DNA of 41,909 bases, from the IMG/VR virus record IMGVR_UViG_3300042475_005476, positions 1 through 41,909 of that record; one strand, given 5' to 3'. This DNA is from a virus. The position numbers and the translations under genes are program-made. Position 1 is the stretch's first letter; every line of letters begins with the position of its first letter. The notes under the pieces were generated by a model. The model was not told the DNA's origin and made no database searches. It saw only the letters and a list, made by a program, of their open reading frames with translations. Shown here piece by piece: positions 3,231 to 30,747 of the stretch.

Positions 3231-3488
3231 AATCATTGGTTGATTAGGAGTCCATTCTTCAGTACTAAGGATATCTATTATTTCAGTATAAGTGTAAGGT
3301 CCTTCAGCTGTTGTTAAAGTGTTAATACTTGAAGGTGTAGATCCTTCCCATTTAATAAAAGTTTTAGTTCCATCTACTGATCTACGAACAGTATCAGCTG
3401 ATGTTTCTAAAACTTGGGTAAAATCAATTTTATCAAGTTCATTAACTGAGAAAATCATAAATTCTCTATTTTCATATTCTTCTGTCAT
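3228..3488 (-). CDS. hypothetical protein, 86 aa, between LamG and fibre genes
   Basis: An 86-residue acidic protein starting MTEEYENREFMIFSVNELDKIDF. The pattern DFTQVLETSADTVRRSVDGTKTFIKWEG and then PYTYTEIIDILSTEEW resembles small conserved proteins I associate with tail-fibre regions of marine T4-like phages, but I cannot attach a function. Its ATG overlaps the TGA of the LamG gene at 3485-4171 by the ATGA arrangement, so translation is probably coupled. No signal peptide, membrane segment or catalytic motif is visible. An adaptor or folding helper for the neighbouring adhesion proteins would fit the context; that is an inference only. Confidence 0.65.
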   Translation of the reverse strand: MTEEYENREFMIFSVNELDKIDFTQVLETSADTVRRSVDGTKTFIKWEGSTPSSINTLTTAEGPYTYTEIIDILSTEEWTPNQPMI

Positions 3489-4171
3489 AATCCAAATCTT
3501 GTTTTGTTATTATTATAATTTTGTAGGACTTCTGCTGCTGATAATCCTCTAGTATATATTCTACCAATAGCTATATTTCCTGTTAAATATGTGTGAATTC
3601 CAACAGCTGCTCCCAAAGTTATATTTTCATTTGAAGCAGTCCAAGGACCAGTCACAGTAGCAGTTCCAATTGAAGAACCATTTAAATACACAGCATGAGA
3701 AGTTCCAATAGAAGTAGCCGCTATATGATACCATGTATTGTAATTTAAAACATTAGCTGGTTGTATACTTACATTATTAGTTCCTAATCTTTGCCATAAT
3801 AAAGTTCTTGTAGTAGAATACCATAAACCAAATGTTCTATTTCCTGAAGGGTTAGATCCTGTACCTATAACACGAACCCAATCACTAGGTCCTGATGATA
3901 TTCTTATCCAAGCTTCAACTGTTATATCGCCTGTTAATAATGATGATATACCAGGCCCATTAACATAATCATCGGACCCATCAAATATAAAAATACCTCC
4001 ATTATCCCCACTAAAAACAGGACCGTTTGTTAATGTACTACTTCTATTTTCTATACTAATATCTCTCCATATCGACCCAGATCTTGGGTAAGAGTCTTGT
4101 TTAGCGGCATCTAAATTTAATGTTAATCCATTTATCACTATACCTCCATAATATGCTACTCTTCCTGCCAT
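3485..4171 (-). CDS. LamG/concanavalin-like tail protein, copy 3 of tandem set
   Basis: A 228-residue protein with a LamG (Laminin_G_3-type, concanavalin-like) jelly-roll pattern. It has GLTLNLDAAKQDSYPRSG near the N-terminus, then W-x-D-I, STLTNGPVFSGDNGG, FDGSDDYV, ITVEAWIRI, NTWYHIAATS..AVYLNG, and NIAIGRIYTRGLSAAEVLQNY near the end. LamG domains bind glycans or proteins, so a surface-adhesion role on the tail is likely. It is the last of three tandem paralogues (with 4173-4865 and 4862-5551) that share the C-terminal signature NYN..KTRFGL. It starts one base after the stop of copy 2 and overlaps the 86-residue gene by four bases. No signal peptide is present, as expected for a virion protein. 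Confidence 0.8.
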   Translation of the reverse strand: MAGRVAYYGGIVINGLTLNLDAAKQDSYPRSGSIWRDISIENRSSTLTNGPVFSGDNGGIFIFDGSDDYVNGPGISSLLTGDITVEAWIRISSGPSDWVRVIGTGSNPSGNRTFGLWYSTTRTLLWQRLGTNNVSIQPANVLNYNTWYHIAATSIGTSHAVYLNGSSIGTATVTGPWTASNENITLGAAVGIHTYLTGNIAIGRIYTRGLSAAEVLQNYNNNKTRFGL

Positions 4172-4172
4172 G

Positions 4173-4865
4173 TTAAAATAATCCGAATCGGGTTTTAGTT
4201 GTGTTATAATTTGATAAAACTTCTGTAGCTGTTAAAGCTCTATTATAAACATCAAGTTTAGCTACTCTAGAGTTTTGATAAACTCCAACAAAATTTCCTA
4301 TAGAAGCTGTAAGTGGTGTTTTAATAGTTCTAGTTTTAGCTCCTCCTGTAGTATTTAATCTTCCATCTAAATAAATGTTCATTACTCCTGTACTAGCATT
4401 TTTAGTAAAAGTCCAATAATGCCAACTATTTTGCCATTGAGCTGCTGATAAAGCTGAAGTGTTGACTCTATCAAAGTTAGCTCCATCATTCCCACAGTCC
4501 CAATAAACTACACTGTCAATCCAAGGTAAATGAATATTTATAGTTCTATCAGAACCGCTAGAAGCTCCAAAAATTGAACCTGTTACTAAATTTACACCAT
4601 AGTTCCAAATCCCAATTGTAATTTCATTCCCCGTTGGTATAGTAGAAGGATTCAAACTAACATAATCATTAGTCCCATCAAGTACTAAACTCCCACCATT
4701 AGCACTATTATAAGTAGGCCCATTAAGTATAGAACCTGTAGTTTGGGTAGGGCCCAAACTATTTAAAACTAAAGATCCACTTATATATGATTTAGAATTA
4801 GCTATATCATAACTAAATACTAAATTTCTTGTAACTGTAGTAGGTCCTCCTGATAAAGTACTCAT
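4173..4865 (-). CDS. LamG/concanavalin-like tail protein, copy 2 of tandem set
   Basis: A 230-residue LamG-like paralogue of its two neighbours. Visible family elements are NLVFSYDIANSKSYISGS, SILNGPTYNSANGGSLVLDG, TNDYVSLN, ITIGIWNYG, WHYWTFTKN..MNIYLDG and KLDVYNRALTATEVLSNYN. The DIANSKSY and NRALTATE motifs are typical of phage LamG proteins. Copy 2 differs from copies 1 and 3 mainly in the middle of the domain, where loops of a concanavalin fold would contact ligand. Its ATG overlaps the TGA of copy 1 (ATGA, 4862-4865), which suggests coupled translation and similar stoichiometry. Ligand unknown. Confidence 0.8.
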   Translation of the reverse strand: MSTLSGGPTTVTRNLVFSYDIANSKSYISGSLVLNSLGPTQTTGSILNGPTYNSANGGSLVLDGTNDYVSLNPSTIPTGNEITIGIWNYGVNLVTGSIFGASSGSDRTINIHLPWIDSVVYWDCGNDGANFDRVNTSALSAAQWQNSWHYWTFTKNASTGVMNIYLDGRLNTTGGAKTRTIKTPLTASIGNFVGVYQNSRVAKLDVYNRALTATEVLSNYNTTKTRFGLF

Positions 4866-5551
4866 AGTCCAAATCTTGTTTTAAGAGAATTATAGTTTTG
4901 TAAAATCTCTGTAGCTGTTAAAGCTTTATTATAAACAGACATGTTATATATATTACCTGGTAAATTAAATCCACTAGAAGTATATTTACCAATATTAATT
5001 GTCCTGTCTAACCCAGTGAATGTAAAAGTAGCTGAGCCTGGGAAGGTATATTGGGTTCCATTTAGGTAAAAAAGAGCTGTTGTACTATTTTTTACCCATA
5101 CAATATTAGATATTTTATTTAAAGAGATATTACCTATATCATTTGTTGTTAATGTCAAAAAGTTATTAGGTGACCCTAAAGTTCCTATATAAGCTGATCC
5201 TGATTGAACTTGCATAAACAAATTATTAGATCCTGTAGCGCTTAATAAAACTGAACCATTCCCACCATATGAAGTCACTCTAATCCAAAATGATACTGTA
5301 TAAGAAGTTAAACTAGAAAATATATTAGTTGTTGGATGAGTTGATAATACAAAATCATCTACCCCATCAAACACAATACTTCCTCCATTAGCTGAATTAA
5401 AAGTAGGACCATTAGTTAAAGTACTATTATTATTACTTCTACTTAAGTCAGCCCAAGTAGTACTACCACTAACATATGACCTACTATTAGCTGCGTCTAA
5501 ATTTAGGATTAATCCATCAGTTACTGCTCTTGGTGAAAAACTAAATGCCAT
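4862..5551 (-). CDS. LamG/concanavalin-like tail protein, copy 1 of tandem set
   Basis: A 229-residue LamG-like protein and the first transcribed of the three. It shows DGLILNLDAANSRSYVSGSTTW, LSRSNNNSTLTNGPTFNSANGG, IVFDGVDDFVLS, YTVSFWIRVTS, ALFYLNGTQYTF and NIYNMSVYNKALTATEILQNYN. The order (N-terminal strand, STLTNGP..NGG, FDG.DD, W-x-R, YLNG, KALTA-E-LQNY) is the same as in copies 2 and 3. This identifies gene duplication. It follows the 1534-residue fibre by three bases. It probably decorates or tips the fibre apparatus and binds a host surface glycan; the latter is inferred from the fold. Confidence 0.82.
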   Translation of the reverse strand: MAFSFSPRAVTDGLILNLDAANSRSYVSGSTTWADLSRSNNNSTLTNGPTFNSANGGSIVFDGVDDFVLSTHPTTNIFSSLTSYTVSFWIRVTSYGGNGSVLLSATGSNNLFMQVQSGSAYIGTLGSPNNFLTLTTNDIGNISLNKISNIVWVKNSTTALFYLNGTQYTFPGSATFTFTGLDRTINIGKYTSSGFNLPGNIYNMSVYNKALTATEILQNYNSLKTRFGL

Positions 5552-16697: not shown

Positions 16698-19163
16698 TTA
16701 GGACTTAGGTATACTAAATTCACCATTATCTTTAAATTGAACATTCTTAGTTTTATCAGATTTTTTAGCTACTGATAAAGTATTTAAAGTTGTAGTCCAA
16801 GTGTTGTTTTGAATAGTATTATCAATACCTTGAACTATAAAATCAATCTTATTAGCATAGTTTTTAGGTAAAATCTCACTGGTGACCATTAATCTTTGAT
16901 AAGGTAAAATTCCTGATATGCCATCTAAACCTAAAGTAAGATTAACAGGGATAAATCCTTTACCTGGGATATTACCATTTATTGTTTTAATACCTAAATC
17001 GTATTCTAATAATAAAATTAAGGTGTTTGAAGCTGAGGTTATAACATCTCTACCCGGGTATTTAAAGTCTTTATAAAGGGGGATAATAAATTTTTCTATA
17101 TGTTCATTATATTTTTTATCTAAATCTTTTTTAAACTCACTCCCAGAAACATTACTCTCAAGATTATTAGTGTTATTTTGTACCCTGTCTAATAAACCTT
17201 CATTCCATCGAGCTAAAAGAGAAGCATTTGGATTAGCTGAGTTGTTACTTGCTGTTGATCCTATTGATATTTGGGTAACTAATTTGTTTGTTATCTCAGA
17301 CTGAACACTTACATTTCTAACAAAACTTCCTTCTATATTTGGTAAAACCCCGTATAACCTAAGAGGATGAGCCTCATTTGGATCATCAACAACTACACCA
17401 GGTATTATAGTGTCATCTTTAATTTGAAGACCATTTTCTTCATCAAAAGTAATAATAAAACTATTTATATTACCTAAAGCATTTTGAATTCCATAAACTA
17501 ATTTATCCAAAAAGCTATATAAATTAGCTTGGCTGCTTTCAGGATCAAAAGAAGCGGCTAAAGTAGTAGCTATAAATTCAAGATTAACATGAATAGCCAT
17601 TAACCTCCCAGCATAAGGATTATCCTCAACTCTAAAGGAATTACTTAAGATTTCTCTTAAAGCTTCACCTCCGTCACTAAAAGGTATTAAACACACTTCA
17701 GGATCTGTAGAATGTTGAAAAAAATGAGTAAACATATAATTGTCATTATAACCATTACTTACTTTTATACCTTTAGCCCCATTTTTACTATGAGGTAAAA
17801 TTTCTTGTTTTATAATTTCTAATAATCCTCCTAATGTTATATAATTAAACTCAAAAGCATTTTTATTATTCTCAGGATTTATAAACTTAATAGATATTAA
17901 CTCAGAAAGAGATGATATTCCTTGTTGGGTTAATATTTCTGTTCTATTATCTAAAGAAGATTTTTTATAATTAACCTTATATTTAGTACTCCATTTAATA
18001 TTTTTTAAAGTTAAATTTAGTGAAAATAATCTTTTATTAAAAACAGATTTATTTTGATCTAAAATAATAGTAGCACTATTATCATCAATTTCTGAAAGGG
18101 AAGATCCAACATCTAAAGTTGTTGGGGGGTTAAGTGAAAGAGGATCAACCCTAATAGCCGCTCCTACTTCTATAAGTTTTTCATACCCCCCGGCTAAAGA
18201 TAAATTATCAGCTATAGCTTTATTATAAACTGAATCGATATCTTCTTTTTTTGCATTTCGACCTAATTTTTTTAGGATAGCTTTTTTTTCATCTGTAGTT
18301 TTAGCTACTATTTTATAATCAGTTAGATTAGTTATAGTATCATTTAAAGTAACAGGACCATCTAAAACTAAACTATCTATAACGCCTCCTTTAGATACAC
18401 CTTTTAAACTAATTCCATAAGAGCCATTACTATTAAAGTCCCAAGAAAAGTTAGTTATTTTTATAAGAGCACCATCATAATTTCCTCCTGATTTTTCTTT
18501 ATACTCACTAATACCAATTTCTACATCAGAATCTTTTTTTCCCTTTTCAAAAAAAGTATTAAAAGCTTGAGTATAAAACTCAGGGCTTGAAATAAACTCA
18601 CTATCAGAAGTAATATAGTTAGTATGTCCCCATTCTAATAACATATAATAACCAATTCTTAAATATAGAGCTTCTATTATTTCTAATTGATCTTTATTAT
18701 GAACTGTTAATTGAATATCATAATTTCTAATAGCTCCTCTATTAACATGACTAATTTTTACAGAATCTAAACCAGGCATAGGAACATAACCATACTCTGA
18801 AGAACCAAGACCGTAAGAATATTGGGCTGCTCTAAGAGCATTATTTCTTTCATTTAAATTAGGAACAACTCCCCCCAATCTTGAGTAAGAATTATCAATG
18901 CTATATATTCCTCCAAATAAAACAAAGTTTTTAGCTAATAAATCTCCTGAGTTATTTGGGAGGTTGAGATTTTTTCTTAGATCATCTGATCCTTCTATTA
19001 AATCAACAGATGAAGCTAATCTAACCCAGGCATTTTTATTATTATTATATAATACTCTTTGGTCTAAAGTTAAAACTTCAGGATTATTCCCTATAATTTG
19101 TTGTCTTATTCTAATTTGATCTTGTACCCATTTAGCTAAAGGATCTCCAGTAATATTAGCCAT
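16698..19163 (-). CDS. large baseplate hub-like protein, 821 aa
   Basis: An 821-residue soluble protein. Supportive features are IRNYDIQLTVHNKDQLEIIE and LYLRIGYYMLLEWGHTNYI in the first third, a central long domain with IKITNFSWDF and SYGISLKGVSKGGVID, and a C-terminus reading PYQRLMVTSEILPKNY followed by FIVQGIDNTIQNNTWTTTL. The last motif (F-x-V-x-G-I-x-H/N-x-I-x-x-N-x-W-x-T-x-L) is typical of tail hub and baseplate proteins of contractile tails. T4 hub proteins gp27 and gp5 are analogous, but no lysozyme domain is visible. The start overlaps the gp53-like gene by eight bases. The assignment rests on motif and context; a large wedge protein is the alternative. Confidence 0.6.
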   Translation of the reverse strand: MANITGDPLAKWVQDQIRIRQQIIGNNPEVLTLDQRVLYNNNKNAWVRLASSVDLIEGSDDLRKNLNLPNNSGDLLAKNFVLFGGIYSIDNSYSRLGGVVPNLNERNNALRAAQYSYGLGSSEYGYVPMPGLDSVKISHVNRGAIRNYDIQLTVHNKDQLEIIEALYLRIGYYMLLEWGHTNYITSDSEFISSPEFYTQAFNTFFEKGKKDSDVEIGISEYKEKSGGNYDGALIKITNFSWDFNSNGSYGISLKGVSKGGVIDSLVLDGPVTLNDTITNLTDYKIVAKTTDEKKAILKKLGRNAKKEDIDSVYNKAIADNLSLAGGYEKLIEVGAAIRVDPLSLNPPTTLDVGSSLSEIDDNSATIILDQNKSVFNKRLFSLNLTLKNIKWSTKYKVNYKKSSLDNRTEILTQQGISSLSELISIKFINPENNKNAFEFNYITLGGLLEIIKQEILPHSKNGAKGIKVSNGYNDNYMFTHFFQHSTDPEVCLIPFSDGGEALREILSNSFRVEDNPYAGRLMAIHVNLEFIATTLAASFDPESSQANLYSFLDKLVYGIQNALGNINSFIITFDEENGLQIKDDTIIPGVVVDDPNEAHPLRLYGVLPNIEGSFVRNVSVQSEITNKLVTQISIGSTASNNSANPNASLLARWNEGLLDRVQNNTNNLESNVSGSEFKKDLDKKYNEHIEKFIIPLYKDFKYPGRDVITSASNTLILLLEYDLGIKTINGNIPGKGFIPVNLTLGLDGISGILPYQRLMVTSEILPKNYANKIDFIVQGIDNTIQNNTWTTTLNTLSVAKKSDKTKNVQFKDNGEFSIPKS

Positions 19164-19473
19164 TTTGATTTAATTTGTTGTAACTGTTTAATATATTTGA
19201 TATATCACTTGGTATTCTAATTTGAACCCCAACAGGAGGTACTAAAGAATTTTGTATTAAAGCATCAGCATTAGCTATAGATATTATCCACCATAAAGTA
19301 GGATCATTATAATATTGATTAGCTAATAAATCATATCTATCATTTTGTTGAGTTATAACATAAATATCACTTACAGACAAAGGGATTTCAGGATATTTAG
19401 TTGTAGCTAAATATCTTTTTTCTGGTCTAAAAGGAGAATTTTGTAATTCAGATATATTTTGATAACGTCTCAT
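19156..19473 (-). CDS. gp53-like baseplate wedge protein with LysM-type fold
   Basis: A 105-residue protein containing YVITQQNDRYDLLANQYY, then NDPTLWWIISIANAD and LVPPVGVQIRIP. This is the LysM-like pattern (a first strand, helix ..DLLA..YY..., W-W-I...N, then P-G-x-x-I-x-I-P) used by T4-type baseplate wedge gp53 and related small baseplate proteins. T4 gp53 is longer (about 196 residues), so only the LysM-like core and a short N-terminal extension are present. It overlaps the preceding baseplate gene by ATGA (19470-19473) and the hub-like gene by eight bases, so the three are translationally linked. In virions it would join wedge proteins around the hub. Confidence 0.75.
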   Translation of the reverse strand: MRRYQNISELQNSPFRPEKRYLATTKYPEIPLSVSDIYVITQQNDRYDLLANQYYNDPTLWWIISIANADALIQNSLVPPVGVQIRIPSDISNILNSYNKLNQNG

Positions 19474-21476: not shown

Positions 21477-24400
21477 TTACATTCTGTAAGCATTTTGACC
21501 TAAAGCTTGACCTACTTTATTTCCATTTAATTCTACTGTTATTGGGCGATTAGCTATAGATGGGATCTGTGATATTAATCCTGCCATTAATTGTTTCATT
21601 TCTTGAAGTTCTTTTTTAAGGTCACTATTATCTGATTCTATAACTGTAGTTGAAGTTTGAGGAGATTCTTGGGCTATTTGATCTAAAGGTACCACAGCTT
21701 CAGGACCAGCTTCACCTATTAAAGCTACTGTTGGTTTAGACACCATTCCTCCTTCAGCCAATTTAGGCATAGCTGCCTCTTCTAATGATAGGTTTTCACT
21801 AATTGACTGGCTAACACTAACTAAATTGGAACCAACCCCATCATTAACCTTTTGAACCATAACTCCTTTAGGTGAAACTTTAACATCTAAAGCTCCAAAT
21901 TTCTCACTAACAGGGAACACTGGTCCTTTTTTACCAGTAACTCCATCATTAACATATGAAATATTAGGAGATACAACAATACCATCTTTAGGGTGAGTAA
22001 CTGCTACATTACCAAAACGATCTGCTATTGTGAATGGTCCCTTTGATGAAGATGAACCATCAGATACATGTTGAAAAGTTTTTAATTCAGATGTTAAATA
22101 TGAGCTAATATTATTTTTAACATTTTGAGCTGTAGATGAGGTCTCCTTAGTGACTAAAGCGTCCTTAACCTTTTGAGCTATTGATGAGGTTTCTTTAGTG
22201 ACTAAGGCATCCTTAACCTTTTGAGCTATTGATGAGGTTTCTTTAGTGACTAAGGCATCCTTAACCTTTTGAGCTATTGATGACTCCTTAGATAAGGTTT
22301 CCTTAGTGATTAGGGCATCCTTAACCTTTTGAGCTATGGATGACTCCTTAGATAAGGTTTCTTTAGTGATTAGGGCATCCTTAATCTTTTGAGCTATGGA
22401 TGACTCCTTAGATAAGGTTTCCTTAGTGACTAAGGCATCTTTAACTTTTTGGGCTATAGATGAGGTTTCCTTAATAGTTAGAGCATCCTTAACTTTTTGG
22501 GATGTAGAAGATTCTTTAACTAAAGTTTCTTTAGTAACTAAAGCGTCTTTAACATTTTGAGTTATGGATGAGGTTTCCTTAGTGATTAAGGCATCCTTAA
22601 TCCTTTGAATTTCTTTAGTAACTAAAGCGTCTTTAACTTTTTGGGCTATAGATGACTCTTTAGATAAAGTATTTTTAGTAACTAAAGCATCTTTAACCTT
22701 TTGAGTTATGGATGACTCTTTAACTAAGGCTTCCTTAGTGATTAAGGCATCTTTAACAGTTAAAGCATCCTTAACCTTTTGAGTTGTAGATAAGGTTTCC
22801 TTAGTGACTAAAGCGTCCTTAACTTTTTGGGCTTCTTTAGTAACTAAGGCATCTTTAACTTTTTGAGCTATGGAAGATTCCTTAGATAAGGTTTCCTTAG
22901 TGACTAAAGCGTCCTTAACAGTTAAAGCATCTTTAACGTTTTGAGCTATTGATGATTCTTTAGATAAAGTATTTTTAGTCACTAAAGCATCCTTAACTTT
23001 TTGGACTAATACTTTTTTAGGAGATACTTTAACATCTAACGCGCCGAATCCCTCACTAACTGGGAAGACTTTGTTTTGTGGGGTAGGTGTTGCTCCATCA
23101 TTAACATATGAAATATTCGGGGATACTACGAGTTTATCTTGAGGATGAGTAATAGCTACATTACCAAATTTATCAGATATAGTAAATGGTCCTTTATTTG
23201 AGACTGTAGAACCATCTTTTACCTTTATCCCAGTTACACCCTTTAAATTTTTAAAGATATCCTCAAACATTTTATTCTCAGGGTCTTTACTGGCTTCTAA
23301 TTGAACTTGAATTTCAGTGAAAGTTTTAAAGGCTAAAATTAAACTATTGAATAATTTAGCTAAAGTAGTTGTAAAAGAATTAAATAATTTAGGTATAGAC
23401 TGGAAAGATGGGGTTATAGAACCAATTGACTTATTAAGAGTTGTTAAAGCCTCAGTAAGCATTTTATTAGCTGAATCAACAGCCCCAGCACCTGGAGTCC
23501 CGGCTTTACCAGCGGGAGCAGCCGCTTTACCAGCTGGGGCTTTAGCATCTGGTGCTTTTGAGAATAAACTCGCTAAACTGGCTCCTATTCCACCTAAAAT
23601 TGAAGGGGTTTTAGAAATACTTCCTTCTTTAGGGGCTTGAGCAGGTTGAGCTGCCGCAGGTTGAGTTTTATTAGATGAGAAAAGACTGGCCAAACCACCA
23701 AACACCCCCATACCACCTAAAGCTAAAGCTTTACCTACTTTACCTTCTTTAGGAGCTTCAGCAGGTTGGGTAGCAGTTGGTTGGGGTTGAGATTTTGGTG
23801 AGAAAAAACTGGCTAAACCACCAAATATTCCCATACCACCTAAAGCTAAAGCTTTACCTACTTTAGGAGCCTCAGCTGGTTGAGTAGCTTGGGCTGTTGG
23901 TTGGGAGGGAGGAAGAGTTGGGGGTGCTGGTGGTACTCCTGGTGCTTGTGGTACTGGTGATGGGACCCCTGGTACTTGTGGTACTGGTGATGGAGCCCCT
24001 GGTGCTTGTGGTAAGGGTGCTGGTACTCCTGGTGCTTGTGCTCCTGGGGTAAGTTTAATAAATTTAGTTCCACCTATACCTTTTAAGGCTTCATTAAATT
24101 TAGCAGCATCAGTCCCCGCCAGTTCAGTTAGCTTTTCTGTTAATTGCTTTTGTATATCACCTAACTGTTTAGGATCAACTTTTCCTTTTTTGTCTTTTTT
24201 AACTTCTATACCTAATGAAGTTAAAGTTTCTTGTAATTTCTTATCTGTTTGTAATTTTGAAATATCAACTTTACTTACAACATCTGTAGCTCCTGTAGCT
24301 TCTATTCTTTTTAAGGCTGTAACTTTGGCTTGTGATCCTTCTGCCTCAGCTTTTACAGAAGCTTGTGTGATATTTCTTTCAAGTTGATTATTTACTGTAT

Positions 24401-27400
24401 CCATAAGTTTTTGGATATTTTCAGCACTATCAAGAGTTATATTATCCTTAGCAAAAATATCAGCCGCATTTTTCATAGCCTTATCTATCTCCGCATCGGT
24501 GGCTCCTGAAGCAGCAAATTGTTTTTTCAAGTCAGCCATAAAAGCTTTAGAATCAGCATCTTTACCAGAAAGAGCACCTGCAGCTGTAGTATTAAGTCCT
24601 TCTGTAAGAGCATCTCCATATTTAACCATTAAATCTTGAGATATATTAGCAGTTTGTTCTTTAAAATTATTAAGAGCTGCTAATTGGGCTTCAACTAAAG
24701 CAGTATTAACACCAGCATCTTCAAGAGCTTTTTGGGTAAGTTTTTTACCTAAAGCATCAGCTGCATTTATTGAAGCATCAGTTAATTCTATTAATCTTGA
24801 GCCAGCATTTTCAGCGGCCATATTCATAAGATCTAAAGGACTTATAGCTCCTTTTAAAGCTGAATTAAACTCTTCTTCAGTAATGTTACCCGCGTTAAGC
24901 ATATCCCCTGCTAACTTTTTAAAGGATTCACTGGATGGGTCTATGCTCATAGTTTTTAAATCTTCAAAAGATTTACCAGTTCCAGCTAACGCTTCAGCAA
25001 ATTTAGCTTTTTCCTCTTGTTCAGTTATCCCTGCTTTTCTAATAGCATCTATTTTAAGTTGAGTTTGTAAAGTTTGAGATTCTTCTTCAGCTATTTGTAT
25101 ACGTTGTAAATTTCTATTATATTCTTCTTGAGCTTTATAAGTTTCTGTGTTTCTCCATTCATTAGCTTTTTTCATGTCTGAATTAGCTTTCACAGCACCT
25201 ATAACAAGACCACCAAGAGCTCCAGCTACAGCACCAGCGGGACCAAGCATAGCACCAAGACTGGCACCCATGGCTGTATACTTAGCCACAGTTCCAGCAG
25301 CCGCTAACTGATCAGCTTGTCTAAGTTTTTGTTTCTTTTTTTCATCTAACTCTGCGGCTTTAGTTCCATCTGTAGTAGCTACTATTTGTGCTTCTAAAGC
25401 CTCAGCCGCTTTCTCAGCGTTTTTCTGGAAGTGGCCGATGGCTGCTTCAATAGCTATACCAGCTACAGCTCCAACAGCACCTCCAGCTGCTATTTTACCT
25501 ATACCTCCTGCTAAACTACCCGCTTTTGGAAGTATACTTCCTGCCTTAGAAGCTAAACCTCCAGCTTTAGAAGCTAAACCTCCTATTTTAGAAGTAGCTT
25601 TAGAAGCTATACTTCCAGCTTTAGAAGCTACATTTCCTACCTTAGAAGTTACTTTAGAAACTAAATTACCAATTCTACCAGCTTTACCTGGTGCTTTTCT
25701 TGTAAATCTGCCTTTACTGTCTCGAGCTTGAGGTTTTCTACCTTTTTTCTTTTTACCATCAGAACTATCAGAACTATCTAACATATCAGTCAAACTTTCA
25801 TTTGCGGCTCCACCTCCTCCTCCTATATCTCCAGCGTTAATTACCTCAACATACATTGGATTGCTGGATGAGGTGCCTAAGTTTTCTTTATCAGATTGGG
25901 TCATACCAAATATCTTTCCAAAACCTAATTTACTACTTAATAAATTTCCAGCTCCTTTAGCGAGATCAAGTGTTTTCGCACCAGCCATTTTTATTAAATT
26001 CCCTCCTGCTCCTAAAATAGCATTAGTTAATTCTGGGGCTACCTTACTACCTAAACCTATAGTGAGGGCTCCTCCACCTAATATTTTAGTTAAAGTAGGA
26101 TGGTCTTTAGCAAAGGCGACAATTTTATCAAACATACCTTTTATAAAGGTGAAAGCATCTTTTACACCTTGTATAAAACCTTTAACATCTTCAATTAAAG
26201 CTTCAACATCTATACCATTAATTTTTTCAATTACCTTATCTAAAATATCAGCCATACCACCAAAAGCACCTGAAGCCATTTTATCGGCTCCTCCTCCCAT
26301 TTCAAAAACTTTACCTATTATTTCAGCTACTTTTGAGTATATAGCTCCAAATACATCAAATATTTTTGAGAATATATTTTTTATTTCAGGCCCGTGAGTT
26401 TTAAAGAACTCAACAAGTTTTAGACCAATTTCATTTAATTTAGTACCTAATTTCCCAACAGGTCCTTCAGCCATTTCTTTAAAGCTTTTTCCACCTTGCC
26501 CAACTAATCCCCCAAATGCTTTAAAGAAGGGTTGCATTTTATCTATTAAAATAGCTCTTAAATCTTGAACATATTGAACTACTTTCCTAAAAGCTTGAGC
26601 TACAGGTAACATAGCCTTAGCCATCTCCATTTGAGTAGCTACTAATTGCCTTTGACGAAGTGCATCTTGTTCAGCGTAAGAAGCTTTAGCTACTTGTTGT
26701 GATAAGGCTTCATTACCATATTTTTGTCTAAATTTAGCAGCGGCTTTTTCAGCATCTCCAGTCTCCTTAAGCATTTTATTATATTCTTCTTGAGCCTGGT
26801 CCATATCTGAGAAACCTGTTCCCGCTAATAATTCTTGGGTTTCTAATGTTTTAGCTAATTCATCACGAGTCATACCAACAGCGGCTGCTAAAGCTTCTTG
26901 TTGGATAACATTCTTTTTACCAAACTCAGCTGCTGATCCTATATTTTTAGCTAATTCTTTAGCTAAAGTAGCTGAGTCGCCTTGTAAGGCTGCTTGTCTG
27001 GCTCTTTCAAGATTTAAATCTTTACCAATAAGCAACTCAGCTTCCATTTCTTTAGCTATAGAATCTTCAAAATTGAGTAAACTACTACCTATATCTTCTA
27101 ATTTACTCATTTCTAAACCTAAAGCTGTAGCTTGATAGGCGGCTTCTGCTAAATCTTTACCTTGACCTCTAAATGTTAATCTTGTAGCAGAACTGGTTTT
27201 AGCTATTTGTTGTAAAACTGCTTTTTGAGACACAGCTGAATTATTAATTGCCTTCTGATACCTTATCTGATCTTCATAAGCTTTTAAGGTGTCATCAACA
27301 CTTTCACCTTGAAGTTGAGAAAGTTTAACAAACTCAGCGGCTTCTCCTGCTGCAAATCCAGCACTTTGAATAAGTCTATTATATGATCTGGCTGTAGCAT

Positions 27401-29027
27401 CTGAGAATTCCATTGTGGTGCCAAATGCCTTGTTAAGTTCAACCATATTTGCGGCTAATACTTCAGGGAAAGCTCCTAATTCACCACTAAATTTAGATAC
27501 CTGGTTGGTTAATCCTTGGGCTTGTTTAGTCGAAACTCCTAAATCTGTAGCTATATTTTTAGTAGCTGTAGATAATTCTTTCATTAGGTTTTCACCTTCT
27601 TTGAAAGAATCCATAAATCCTCTTATACTAAAGAAAGAATTTTTAATATAATCAATCCCTTCAGAAAATAAACCTCCAATTTCACTTACTACTTGTTTAG
27701 CAGGACTAATGAGGACATTAAAAGCACCTTTTAATCCTTTCCCAATCATTGAAGCTATGTTTTTAACAAGCCCTCCAAATAATTTACTTACTCCTGCTAC
27801 TAAAGCTGTAGCTCCTGCTATTAAAGCTGGTCCTGATAAAGCTTCTTTTATACTTCCAAATGTGGCTTTAATACCTGCTCCTAACACTGTGATATTTTTA
27901 CCAAACATCCCAGCTTTTTCCTCCCCACTTTCAATCTTCCTAGCCATTTCTTCAGCGGCTTTTTTACCTTCTTCAAATCTTAAAGCTATAGAAGCTCCTT
28001 TAAGACCTAAACCTTCTAAAAGACCACCAGCTGCTCCTATAGTAAGATTAAATAAACTTAAACTTTTAGTTATTCTATTTTGTTTTTCTTCTTGTTCTTT
28101 TAAGTATTGGATTGTTTTTTTATTTTCTTCTGAAGCTTTTTGGGCTAAAGCATATTGTTTCTCTTGAGTAGTTAATCCTAAGTGGAGGAGATTGTTTTTA
28201 GTTTTTTCATCAGATAGCTTTTTCTGGGTTTCGGCTAACTCTTGAGTAGCAGAATCACTTTTTTTTACTTGAAAGTCATATTCTTTTCGTTTTTCCTCAA
28301 CAGTTTTTAAAGCTATATCATATTCTTTTTCTGAAAGGGAATAAGAATCCATATGTCCCTTATATAGAGTATTTTGAGCTTCATATAGTTCTTTAGCGGC
28401 TGTTATTGCTTCTTTATTAGTACCCTTTAAAGCTGCAGTATAAGCATCTAAAGCTTTTTGTCTACTTTCAGCTAATGCTTTTTCATTTTTCTTTTTAACT
28501 TCAAAAGACTTTTTATCAATTCCTCCTTCTTCTTCTAAGGAACTTAATTTTTCTTTATTTTTTAGTAAATCTTTTTCTAAAGAAAAAAGCTCATTAGCTT
28601 TATCTACTCTTTCTTGTCCCGCCTCCTTAGCTAAATTTTTATATTCTTCTTCTAAAGAAATTATTTTTTGTTGTCCTTCTGTATATTCCTTTACTCTTTC
28701 TTTACTATCCTCTGTTATTTTTTGGCCTAATGATAATAGAGTATTATCTAATTTAATTTGATTTTTTTTAGCTTCTTTAATAGCATTAGTGATATCTTTC
28801 ATAGAAGAATATTCACTAGTCAAATTACGAGCTGAGGTGTTTATAGATTTTAAAATCTTTAAAGTCTCAGACTGATCTCGAGTAACATCTCTGCTTCTAT
28901 TATTTAGTCTTCTAAAGGTATCAACTAAATCACTAGTTCGAGATACAAGTAGCCCTATAAATTCTTGAGCTTCCTCTAAGCTACTAGTGAATTCTTTTTG
29001 GTTATTTAATTGTTCTTCAGAAGCCAT
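21477..29027 (-). CDS. giant tape measure protein, 2516 aa
   Basis: Residues 1-330 are charged coiled coil (KSLEEEY-type heptads, many Lys/Glu), followed by a first hydrophobic stretch (SLFNLTIGAAGGLLEGLG). Residues of about 330-1400 alternate amphipathic and hydrophobic helices, including Gly/Ala/Lys-rich SKAGSIASKATSKIGGLASK and membrane-like AAGGAVGAVAGIAIEAAIG. Residues of about 1660-1820 hold Pro-rich and three-copy KALALGGMGIFGGLASFFS-like repeats. Residues 2011-2303 are an 18-copy KDAL array. The end contains VALIGEAGPEAVVPL, a hallmark of phage tape measures. The protein sets tail length and is threaded through the tube. T4 gp29 has about 590 residues, so this one is extraordinarily long. 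It follows a hairpin and a promoter-like motif. Confidence 0.88.
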   Translation of the reverse strand: MASEEQLNNQKEFTSSLEEAQEFIGLLVSRTSDLVDTFRRLNNRSRDVTRDQSETLKILKSINTSARNLTSEYSSMKDITNAIKEAKKNQIKLDNTLLSLGQKITEDSKERVKEYTEGQQKIISLEEEYKNLAKEAGQERVDKANELFSLEKDLLKNKEKLSSLEEEGGIDKKSFEVKKKNEKALAESRQKALDAYTAALKGTNKEAITAAKELYEAQNTLYKGHMDSYSLSEKEYDIALKTVEEKRKEYDFQVKKSDSATQELAETQKKLSDEKTKNNLLHLGLTTQEKQYALAQKASEENKKTIQYLKEQEEKQNRITKSLSLFNLTIGAAGGLLEGLGLKGASIALRFEEGKKAAEEMARKIESGEEKAGMFGKNITVLGAGIKATFGSIKEALSGPALIAGATALVAGVSKLFGGLVKNIASMIGKGLKGAFNVLISPAKQVVSEIGGLFSEGIDYIKNSFFSIRGFMDSFKEGENLMKELSTATKNIATDLGVSTKQAQGLTNQVSKFSGELGAFPEVLAANMVELNKAFGTTMEFSDATARSYNRLIQSAGFAAGEAAEFVKLSQLQGESVDDTLKAYEDQIRYQKAINNSAVSQKAVLQQIAKTSSATRLTFRGQGKDLAEAAYQATALGLEMSKLEDIGSSLLNFEDSIAKEMEAELLIGKDLNLERARQAALQGDSATLAKELAKNIGSAAEFGKKNVIQQEALAAAVGMTRDELAKTLETQELLAGTGFSDMDQAQEEYNKMLKETGDAEKAAAKFRQKYGNEALSQQVAKASYAEQDALRQRQLVATQMEMAKAMLPVAQAFRKVVQYVQDLRAILIDKMQPFFKAFGGLVGQGGKSFKEMAEGPVGKLGTKLNEIGLKLVEFFKTHGPEIKNIFSKIFDVFGAIYSKVAEIIGKVFEMGGGADKMASGAFGGMADILDKVIEKINGIDVEALIEDVKGFIQGVKDAFTFIKGMFDKIVAFAKDHPTLTKILGGGALTIGLGSKVAPELTNAILGAGGNLIKMAGAKTLDLAKGAGNLLSSKLGFGKIFGMTQSDKENLGTSSSNPMYVEVINAGDIGGGGGAANESLTDMLDSSDSSDGKKKKGRKPQARDSKGRFTRKAPGKAGRIGNLVSKVTSKVGNVASKAGSIASKATSKIGGLASKAGGLASKAGSILPKAGSLAGGIGKIAAGGAVGAVAGIAIEAAIGHFQKNAEKAAEALEAQIVATTDGTKAAELDEKKKQKLRQADQLAAAGTVAKYTAMGASLGAMLGPAGAVAGALGGLVIGAVKANSDMKKANEWRNTETYKAQEEYNRNLQRIQIAEEESQTLQTQLKIDAIRKAGITEQEEKAKFAEALAGTGKSFEDLKTMSIDPSSESFKKLAGDMLNAGNITEEEFNSALKGAISPLDLMNMAAENAGSRLIELTDASINAADALGKKLTQKALEDAGVNTALVEAQLAALNNFKEQTANISQDLMVKYGDALTEGLNTTAAGALSGKDADSKAFMADLKKQFAASGATDAEIDKAMKNAADIFAKDNITLDSAENIQKLMDTVNNQLERNITQASVKAEAEGSQAKVTALKRIEATGATDVVSKVDISKLQTDKKLQETLTSLGIEVKKDKKGKVDPKQLGDIQKQLTEKLTELAGTDAAKFNEALKGIGGTKFIKLTPGAQAPGVPAPLPQAPGAPSPVPQVPGVPSPVPQAPGVPPAPPTLPPSQPTAQATQPAEAPKVGKALALGGMGIFGGLASFFSPKSQPQPTATQPAEAPKEGKVGKALALGGMGVFGGLASLFSSNKTQPAAAQPAQAPKEGSISKTPSILGGIGASLASLFSKAPDAKAPAGKAAAPAGKAGTPGAGAVDSANKMLTEALTTLNKSIGSITPSFQSIPKLFNSFTTTLAKLFNSLILAFKTFTEIQVQLEASKDPENKMFEDIFKNLKGVTGIKVKDGSTVSNKGPFTISDKFGNVAITHPQDKLVVSPNISYVNDGATPTPQNKVFPVSEGFGALDVKVSPKKVLVQKVKDALVTKNTLSKESSIAQNVKDALTVKDALVTKETLSKESSIAQKVKDALVTKEAQKVKDALVTKETLSTTQKVKDALTVKDALITKEALVKESSITQKVKDALVTKNTLSKESSIAQKVKDALVTKEIQRIKDALITKETSSITQNVKDALVTKETLVKESSTSQKVKDALTIKETSSIAQKVKDALVTKETLSKESSIAQKIKDALITKETLSKESSIAQKVKDALITKETLSKESSIAQKVKDALVTKETSSIAQKVKDALVTKETSSIAQKVKDALVTKETSSTAQNVKNNISSYLTSELKTFQHVSDGSSSSKGPFTIADRFGNVAVTHPKDGIVVSPNISYVNDGVTGKKGPVFPVSEKFGALDVKVSPKGVMVQKVNDGVGSNLVSVSQSISENLSLEEAAMPKLAEGGMVSKPTVALIGEAGPEAVVPLDQIAQESPQTSTTVIESDNSDLKKELQEMKQLMAGLISQIPSIANRPITVELNGNKVGQALGQNAYRM
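21846..22040 (-). repeat. tape-measure flanking module, copy 2
   Basis: This copy codes for residues 2330-2394, from GPFTIADRFGNVAVTHP to FGALDVKVSPKGVMVQKV. It is homologous to copy 1 (residues 1946-2011), sharing VVSPNISYVNDG and VFPVSE-x-FGALDVKVSP. Together the copies bracket the KDAL array. Confidence 0.85.
22119..22997 (-). repeat. VKDALVTKETLSKESSIAQ repeat array in tape measure
   Basis: The array has 18 KDAL cores in about 293 residues. The commonest unit is VKDALVTKETLSKESSIAQK, with shorter variants such as VKDALVTKETSSIAQK and VKDALT. DNA copies around 22140-22400 are almost identical (actaaggcatccttaacc-type units on the plus strand), indicating recent unequal recombination or slippage. 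The reading frame is kept throughout. Confidence 0.92.
22998..23192 (-). repeat. tape-measure flanking module, copy 1
   Basis: This copy codes for residues 1946-2010, from GPFTISDKFGNVAITHP to SPKKVLVQK. The module ends in VQKV, which runs straight into the first KDAL unit, so the array appears to have grown from the C-terminal edge of this copy. Confidence 0.85.
23565..23880 (-). repeat. three-copy hydrophobic Gly-rich unit in tape measure
   Basis: The unit A-P-K..GKALALGGMGIFGGLASFFS occurs twice nearly unchanged. A third diverged copy reads SILGGIGASLASLFS. Copies are joined by TQPAEAPKEG-type linkers. Each unit is hydrophobic enough to form a helix that could insert in a membrane. Confidence 0.8.
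23930..24050 (-). repeat. PQAPGVPSPV proline-rich repeat in tape measure
   Basis: Four units of the type PQAPGVPSPV (variants PQAPGAPSPV, PQVPGVPSPV) form a likely extended linker. At DNA level the repeat period is about 30 bases and strongly GC-biased compared with its surroundings. Confidence 0.85.
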
Positions 29028-29330: not shown

Positions 29331-30152
29331 TCAGGCGTCAGGCCAAAAAAACGTGACCCCTATAGGAATCTTTACATTTTCTTGAGTATCATCTCCATTT
29401 TCAGGATAGAAATCAAATGTAAGATCCATATCGGGCTGTATCTCTTTAATATGTTCTCTTAAGGCTCTTGAATCTCGAGCTAAGAAATGGTTATCAACAA
29501 AATCTCTAATAGTCTTTCTTGAATCATCTCCATTTACAGAAAGAATCATCTGCTTTAAACGAGTAGACAACTCAGGAGAAGAAAGTTTATTTATCTTTTT
29601 TAAACCTTTAACTTCAGCTTCAATAGCTTTTTCATCTTTATTGCTTAAGATTTTAAAAGTTATATGAGTACCTGAGTGGGGTAATGTGTATTTAAACTCA
29701 TTAGTATAAGGTTCAACTAAATGTTCTTCATTAATCCATTTAGGTTCAATTTCTGAAAGATCAACTGTTACTTCTTGTCCATCATATTCAAAGGTATAAT
29801 CTTTACCATAACCTAAAATACGAGAAGCTACCATAACAGCATTCTTATCACCTACTACAAGATCATCATAATTAACCTTAGATACAATTAAAGATTGCAT
29901 CAATTTGTCAAGAACAATACCTTGTTTAATGTAGTTTTGGTTTGTTAAAATATCCTCTTCTTTAGCGGTCATATACTTCATCTCAATTTTACCTGAAGAG
30001 AGAGGATTGTCTTTAGGGTAAAGGAGACCTTTAGAAGGTAATTCTACAACTTCAGTTGGGAAGTCATATTTTGGTTTACTTTGTTCAACAGGTTGAACAG
30101 GTGCAACAGGATCTGTTACAATAGGATTTAATTGTGGTGTTTCTTCACTCAT
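29331..30152 (-). CDS. gp26-like baseplate hub/assembly protein, 273 aa
   Basis: A 273-residue protein with a Pro/Gln-rich N-terminal tail (PIVTDPVAPVQPVEQSKPK), then FPTEVVELPSKGLLYPKDNP and IEMKYMTAKEEDILTNQNYI. It continues with SLIVSKVNYDDLVVGDKNAV and a helical second half (EKAIEAEVKGLKKINKLSS), ending PIGVTFFWPDA. The sequence LPSKGLLYP...G-x-x-M-x-Y-M-T-x-K-E-E-D-I-L-T fits the T4 base plate protein family that includes gp26. Members contribute to hub assembly and in many phages act as a tail chaperone. It is the first gene after the terminator behind the tube gene and is preceded by a promoter-like motif. Confidence 0.75.
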   Translation of the reverse strand: MSEETPQLNPIVTDPVAPVQPVEQSKPKYDFPTEVVELPSKGLLYPKDNPLSSGKIEMKYMTAKEEDILTNQNYIKQGIVLDKLMQSLIVSKVNYDDLVVGDKNAVMVASRILGYGKDYTFEYDGQEVTVDLSEIEPKWINEEHLVEPYTNEFKYTLPHSGTHITFKILSNKDEKAIEAEVKGLKKINKLSSPELSTRLKQMILSVNGDDSRKTIRDFVDNHFLARDSRALREHIKEIQPDMDLTFDFYPENGDDTQENVKIPIGVTFFWPDA

Positions 30153-30258: not shown

Positions 30259-30747
30259 TTAGTAGTTTAATATGCAGTAGTCAGGGGCTAAAGTCATTGT
30301 AATATTTACAGCTGCACTTTCGTTATCCCAACCATAATCGCCAAAGTTAGCGTCAACAATGAAGCATCCTTTTAACACCCACTCAGAAACGATATCACCT
30401 ACAGGACCTAAAATGTTTAATGTTACATCCTTCTTGTAGAAGTCAGAGTAACCATCTCTACCTGTTACTGATTCGTGGTGTAATCTTACCCATTCCATAA
30501 TAGTTTGTGTACCTGATGGAGAGATAGGGTCATGAAGTGTTAAAGCTACGTTACCCCAAGTTGTTTTACCCTTAACTTTTCTGTAAACGTTAATGTGGTT
30601 AAGAGTTACTTCACCTTGTGTTACTGTAATAGCACCAACTCCCTTAATGAAGTATGATGGAACACCATCAACTAACATTATATATCTGTTCTGCTGTTTT
30701 GGTTCAAACGCTGTGAAAAATATTTCGTTTGGATCTAATATTGCCAT
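30259..30747 (-). CDS. 19: tail tube protein (gp19-like)
   Basis: A 162-residue protein, close to T4 gp19 (163). It starts MAILDPNEIFFTAFEPKQQN and has RYIMLVDGVPSYFIKGVG, VTLNHINVYRKVKGKTTW, VALTLHDPISPSG and WVLKGCFIVDANFG. It ends NITMTLAPDYCILNY. This is the phage T4 gp19-type tube pattern (a VD-x-x-P-x-F-I-K strand, a helix, then a terminal beta-hairpin ending in A-P-D-x-C). It polymerises as stacked hexamers to form the inner tube through which DNA passes. It directly follows the sheath gene in transcription, as in T4. Confidence 0.93.
   Translation of the reverse strand: MAILDPNEIFFTAFEPKQQNRYIMLVDGVPSYFIKGVGAITVTQGEVTLNHINVYRKVKGKTTWGNVALTLHDPISPSGTQTIMEWVRLHHESVTGRDGYSDFYKKDVTLNILGPVGDIVSEWVLKGCFIVDANFGDYGWDNESAAVNITMTLAPDYCILNY

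Follow-up and report, generated by a model that had tools for sequence, protein, structure and literature searches.

What does an 18-copy repeat contribute to a tape measure protein (TMP)? TMPs are mainly treated as rulers, and an array of KDAL repeats inside one of them could belong to the measuring part or could have some other function. The window, a virus record of 41,909 bases, contains a block of myophage structural genes, all read from the minus strand, for a prohead protease, major head protein, PhoH, sheath, tube, hub, TMP and wedge. The candidate TMP gene, P0001 (21477..29027, minus strand), is a 2516-aa ORF with a weak match to phrog_167 (tail length tape measure; E-value: 8e-5) and 38% identity over 164 aa to an annotated Flavobacterium phage TMP (E-value: 1e-18). 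It is a long gene found after the sheath, tube (30259-30747) and hub (29331-30152) genes and before the baseplate wedge gene (19156-19473). Based on the PHROG match, the similarity to Flavobacterium phage TMPs and the gene position, this ORF can be classified as a phage TMP. Elsewhere in the structural block, positions 273-1625 match phrog_4219 (E-value: 6e-7), which is RCC1-like (RCC1: regulator of chromosome condensation). Three adjoining genes at 3485-5551, each encoding about 229 aa and all matching phrog_24074 and phrog_8510, are probably tandem paralogues.

The N-terminal part of the TMP (residues 1-1284; 25176..29027, minus strand) is common to all of the giant relatives described below and shows 60-64% identity to L003, L004 and L006 (blastp). 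The C-terminus (residues 2401-2516; 21480..21827, minus strand) is conserved, being 92-93% identical in L002, L003 and L004. The array (22119..22997, minus strand) is flanked by two copies of a domain designated GPFTI, each including its hooks (a boundary motif, see below). GPFTI-1 (residues 1935-2010; 22998..23225, minus strand) was delimited using alignments and the identity jump to L006, while GPFTI-2 occupies residues 2319-2397 (21837..22073, minus strand); the two copies are 73% identical. Tandem Repeats Finder identified the array as one among several repeat tracts in this protein. A 123-nt duplication at 23623-23865 creates repeated hydrophobic GG.G.FGGLASLF segments, three per protein, which are possibly membrane-active. 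A proline-rich 10-aa repeat of about four copies is located upstream of GPFTI-1 (23931-24047), and SKAGGLASKAG-type repeats are located at 25510-25665.

The array corresponds to TMP residues 2010-2303 and contains exactly 18 KDAL motifs. These run from 22994 to 22119 on the minus strand, in a single reading frame that is interrupted by neither a frameshift nor a stop. This agrees with the preliminary description, which had reported 18 copies of varying length. The units measure, in order, 20, 6, 20, 12, 16, 6, 20, 20, 12, 16, 20, 16, 20, 20, 20, 16, 16 and 16 aa, and 16 of the 18 read Q[KNR][VI]KDAL. A possible VKNN remnant directly follows unit 18; no other degenerate copy stood out. The array has no proline, no glycine and zero aromatic residues in 296 aa. 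Periods of 48, 60 and 222 nt (the last equal to 74 aa) were detected with Tandem Repeats Finder. Because the 12-aa units always precede a 16-aa unit and the 6-aa units always precede a 20-aa unit, this fixed pairing is consistent with older block duplications.

Purifying selection acts on the array unit, whose copies have diverged strongly at synonymous sites (mean pairwise dN 0.085, dS 0.70, ratio about 0.12). KDAL is intact in 18/18 units with synonymous change in each of its four codons, a conservation that is partly by construction as the units were defined by KDAL. The claim that neighbouring copies are almost identical in DNA is correct locally (units 13-15 and units 16-17) and fails for the array as a whole, where distant units are no less alike than close ones (Spearman 0.07, permutation p 0.75) and a neighbour-identity gradient was rejected. 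The longest exact repeat in the array is 74 nt (22210-22283). The youngest part comprises units 13-18 (22119..22463, minus strand), with near-identical 48-bp and 60-bp copies.

Structure prediction of the repeat, which had been proposed as a check, was carried out with AlphaFold2 and gave a helical model of low confidence: almost all of the array was modelled as long helices, mostly with a pLDDT of about 40-78, and GPFTI-1 was modelled with strands at very low confidence. Structure models of repeats made without a real alignment lean to helix. The model fits a helical or extended spacer and is not proof of either. Hydrophobic periodicity at 100 degrees gave no global signal along the array, as the unit lengths break the helical phase. 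A classical coiled coil was considered and rejected, the heptad or hendecad hydrophobic phase not being kept along the array. Comparison of the array with Pfam and PDB returned chance-level matches only (IcmE, E-value: 0.12). A PHROG match (phrog_8172; E-value: 2e-8) was judged to be composition-driven, with no stretch significant alone.

TMP searches identified the relatives L002, L003, L004 and L006, and alignment of the GPFTI domain extended the comparison to 63 loci. At most of these loci, the TMP is about 600-820 aa long and has a single GPFTI domain close to its C-terminus. A giant-TMP subgroup (the window, L002-L004, L006 and L011-L015; 2291-3001 aa where complete) has one to three GPFTI domains with cassettes between them. 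A cassette of ~400 aa recurs in L003, L004, L011, L013 and L015; its AlphaFold2 model was unusable (pLDDT 38.6). A second cassette of ~175 aa is found in L002-L004, twice in L011 and as diverged copies in L012. The TMPs of L012 and L013 contain the Pfam domain PG_binding_1 above its cut-off. The TMPs of L002, L003 and L004 are 56-64% identical to that of the window. In L003 and L004, the slot between GPFTI-1 and GPFTI-2 is filled by the ~400-aa domain with no array, whereas in the window it is filled by the KDAL array; L002 has neither a ~400-aa cassette after GPFTI-1 nor a GPFTI-2. A simple chimera of GPFTI-1 and GPFTI-2 from L003 is a weak interpretation of the single L002 GPFTI domain, as a consistent switch is limited to the last four informative sites. 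The L004 TMP is open except for two in-frame TGA codons (L004:10785 and L004:11451), which may represent sequencing error, mutation or readthrough; that of the closely similar L003 is open throughout. Among the relatives, the KDAL array was found in L006 only. The array peptide had no match in phage records (tblastn) or genome contigs, the TMP core had no match in genome contigs and the GPFTI profile had no match in PDB. The host probably belongs to the Bacteroidota.

GPFTI domains are preceded by a short motif, Q-x-V-x-D-G, referred to here as the hook. Across 52 distinct domains, the hook residues upstream of GPFTI are Q in 36, V in 47, D in 50 and G in 47, and [VI]x[DE][AG] is found immediately upstream in 49/52. 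Each giant TMP has 2-10 matches to a looser form of the hook outside of the array, compared to 0.2-0.4 in shuffled sequence, and these copies are mostly located at domain or cassette edges. The start of the array unit, QKVKDAL, resembles the hook (QxVxDG/A) found at the GPFTI domain start and at cassette edges. This likeness suggests that the array is a multiplied hook, an origin that would rest on a motif of 6-7 residues with G changed to A. The preliminary description, while correct about the repeat itself, had missed both the likeness of its unit to this module-boundary motif and its setting in a module-exchange slot.

Comparison with L006 places an exchange breakpoint at the hook. Aligned codon DNA identity between the window and L006 is 0.50-0.87 over the aligned N-terminal part. 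It is 0.35-0.40 immediately before codon 1935 and rises there to 1.00, followed by 0.95 and 0.99 through GPFTI-1. Because the slot content varies and this jump in identity sits exactly at the hook, the slot can be described as a hook-bounded swap site. The L006 contig ends inside its array, and the order of its units differs from that of the window. Its first unit is identical at 59/60 nt to window unit 8 and at 55/60 to the positional equivalent, unit 1, while no difference separates its units 2 and 3, which match window units 16/17 at 46/48 nt. This arrangement indicates a probable reordering or deletion between the two arrays, which lends support to the earlier suggestion that the array turns over by recombination.

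Tandem repeats in TMPs have been described previously, so the earlier statement that the array has no described equivalent is wrong in general. Siphophage TMPs carry 11-aa or 11-11-18 units that evolve by duplication and loss, with copy numbers that differ among relatives (Belcaid et al. 2011, PMC3271669). Lactococcal phage TP901-1 has 29 repeats in its TMP; deletions in the repeat region shortened the tail in proportion, and the authors propose that the repeats ease length gain and loss (PMC5099701). The KDAL array is similarly made up of tandem units inside a TMP, but the repeats of Belcaid et al. follow a constant period of 11/18 aa marked by W/F, whereas the KDAL units are 20, 16, 12 or 6 aa with no aromatic residue, and the array was not assigned to that type. 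Its unit instead resembles a domain-boundary motif beside swapped cassettes, in a contractile-tailed phage. The TP901-1 repeat region also lies within the TMP; in contrast to that region, where deletions shortened the tail, the KDAL array, known here from sequence alone, occupies a C-terminal slot where cassettes are otherwise found. A parallel is found in the distant relatives L081 and L085, which have a 12-aa IDLNNFIIPPN-like array in the TMP C-terminal region; in L081, another end-domain (DFI.RPG...DDL.IGG) is present in two copies, one on each side of this array. The L081/L085 unit is unrelated in sequence to the KDAL unit and probably has a separate origin. The literature searched contained no description of a repeat similar to the hook that bounds exchanged TMP cassettes. 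Tandem repeats with gain and loss of units are already known from TMPs as a general kind; against that literature, the hook-like unit and the swap-slot setting are new.

The proposed model for the KDAL array, which we consider reasonably probable, is as follows. About 18 hook copies (QxVxDG/A), without cassettes, would fill the slot between the two GPFTI copies. A hook-linker would have been duplicated, followed by block duplications and then by the recent 48/60-bp duplications. Recombination at the hook would carry the array, together with GPFTI-1, from phage to phage. Its role in the virion would be that of a passive spacer, mostly helical and free of aromatic residues, within the C-terminal region of the TMP on the baseplate side; a location near the baseplate hub is suggested by analogy with other phages. 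Only one relative, itself partial, carries the array, and this counts against the model. More tentatively, the TMP end as a whole may be a cassette-exchange platform in which the hook and GPFTI serve as recurrent recombination points for swapping whole domains (cell-wall-binding and other), with KDAL arrays as expansions by which the slot stays open and primed to take up new cassettes.

We favour a passive spacer in a swap slot over both a ruler and a specific binding array. Under the ruler explanation, the array would be part of the length-measuring helix and the number of units would set tail length. The array does lie inside the TMP and is modelled as a helix, its length of about 293 aa would contribute about 44 nm at 1.5 angstrom per residue, and both repeat and non-repeat deletions shorten the TP901-1 tail (PMC5099701). 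This explanation is nonetheless unlikely: a ~400-aa cassette takes the place of the array in L003/L004 and is missing from L002, the spacing from GPFTI to GPFTI is not conserved (384 in the window, 470 in L003, 452 and 701 in L011), and the units have neither a constant period nor aromatic anchors. Under another explanation, the units would serve as multivalent docking sites for a partner such as an assembly chaperone, the hub or, after ejection, a host target. The strong conservation of the unit protein sequence despite diverged synonymous sites speaks for this; such strong purifying selection could reflect a specific binding role instead of a passive spacer. The peptidoglycan-binding cassette in the corresponding TMP region of L012/L013 indicates that this region can carry host-facing functions. 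We regard docking sites as rather unlikely, as no known binding repeat was matched in Pfam or PDB and the array is absent from all relatives except L006.

The array might instead be a neutral slippage product or an assembly artefact with no role. Tandem repeats expand readily, and the termination of the L006 contig within its array suggests that assemblers struggle there. Set against this are the purifying selection on the units, the uninterrupted reading frame, the high synonymous divergence and the presence of the array in a second, independent contig with an exact repeat length limited to 74 nt in the window. Absence of any role is very unlikely, and the assembly artefact that the preliminary description had named as a possible refutation is likewise improbable.

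According to the favoured model of a passive spacer in a swap slot, the giant TMPs would form a group of 2300-3000-aa proteins that have grown as domains were stacked and exchanged between copies of a single short boundary motif, with one phage filling the slot with 18 copies of the motif itself. If this is true, it would provide a testable rule for where such TMPs recombine, and it would distinguish the measuring part of the protein from a variable end with possible functions in cell entry.
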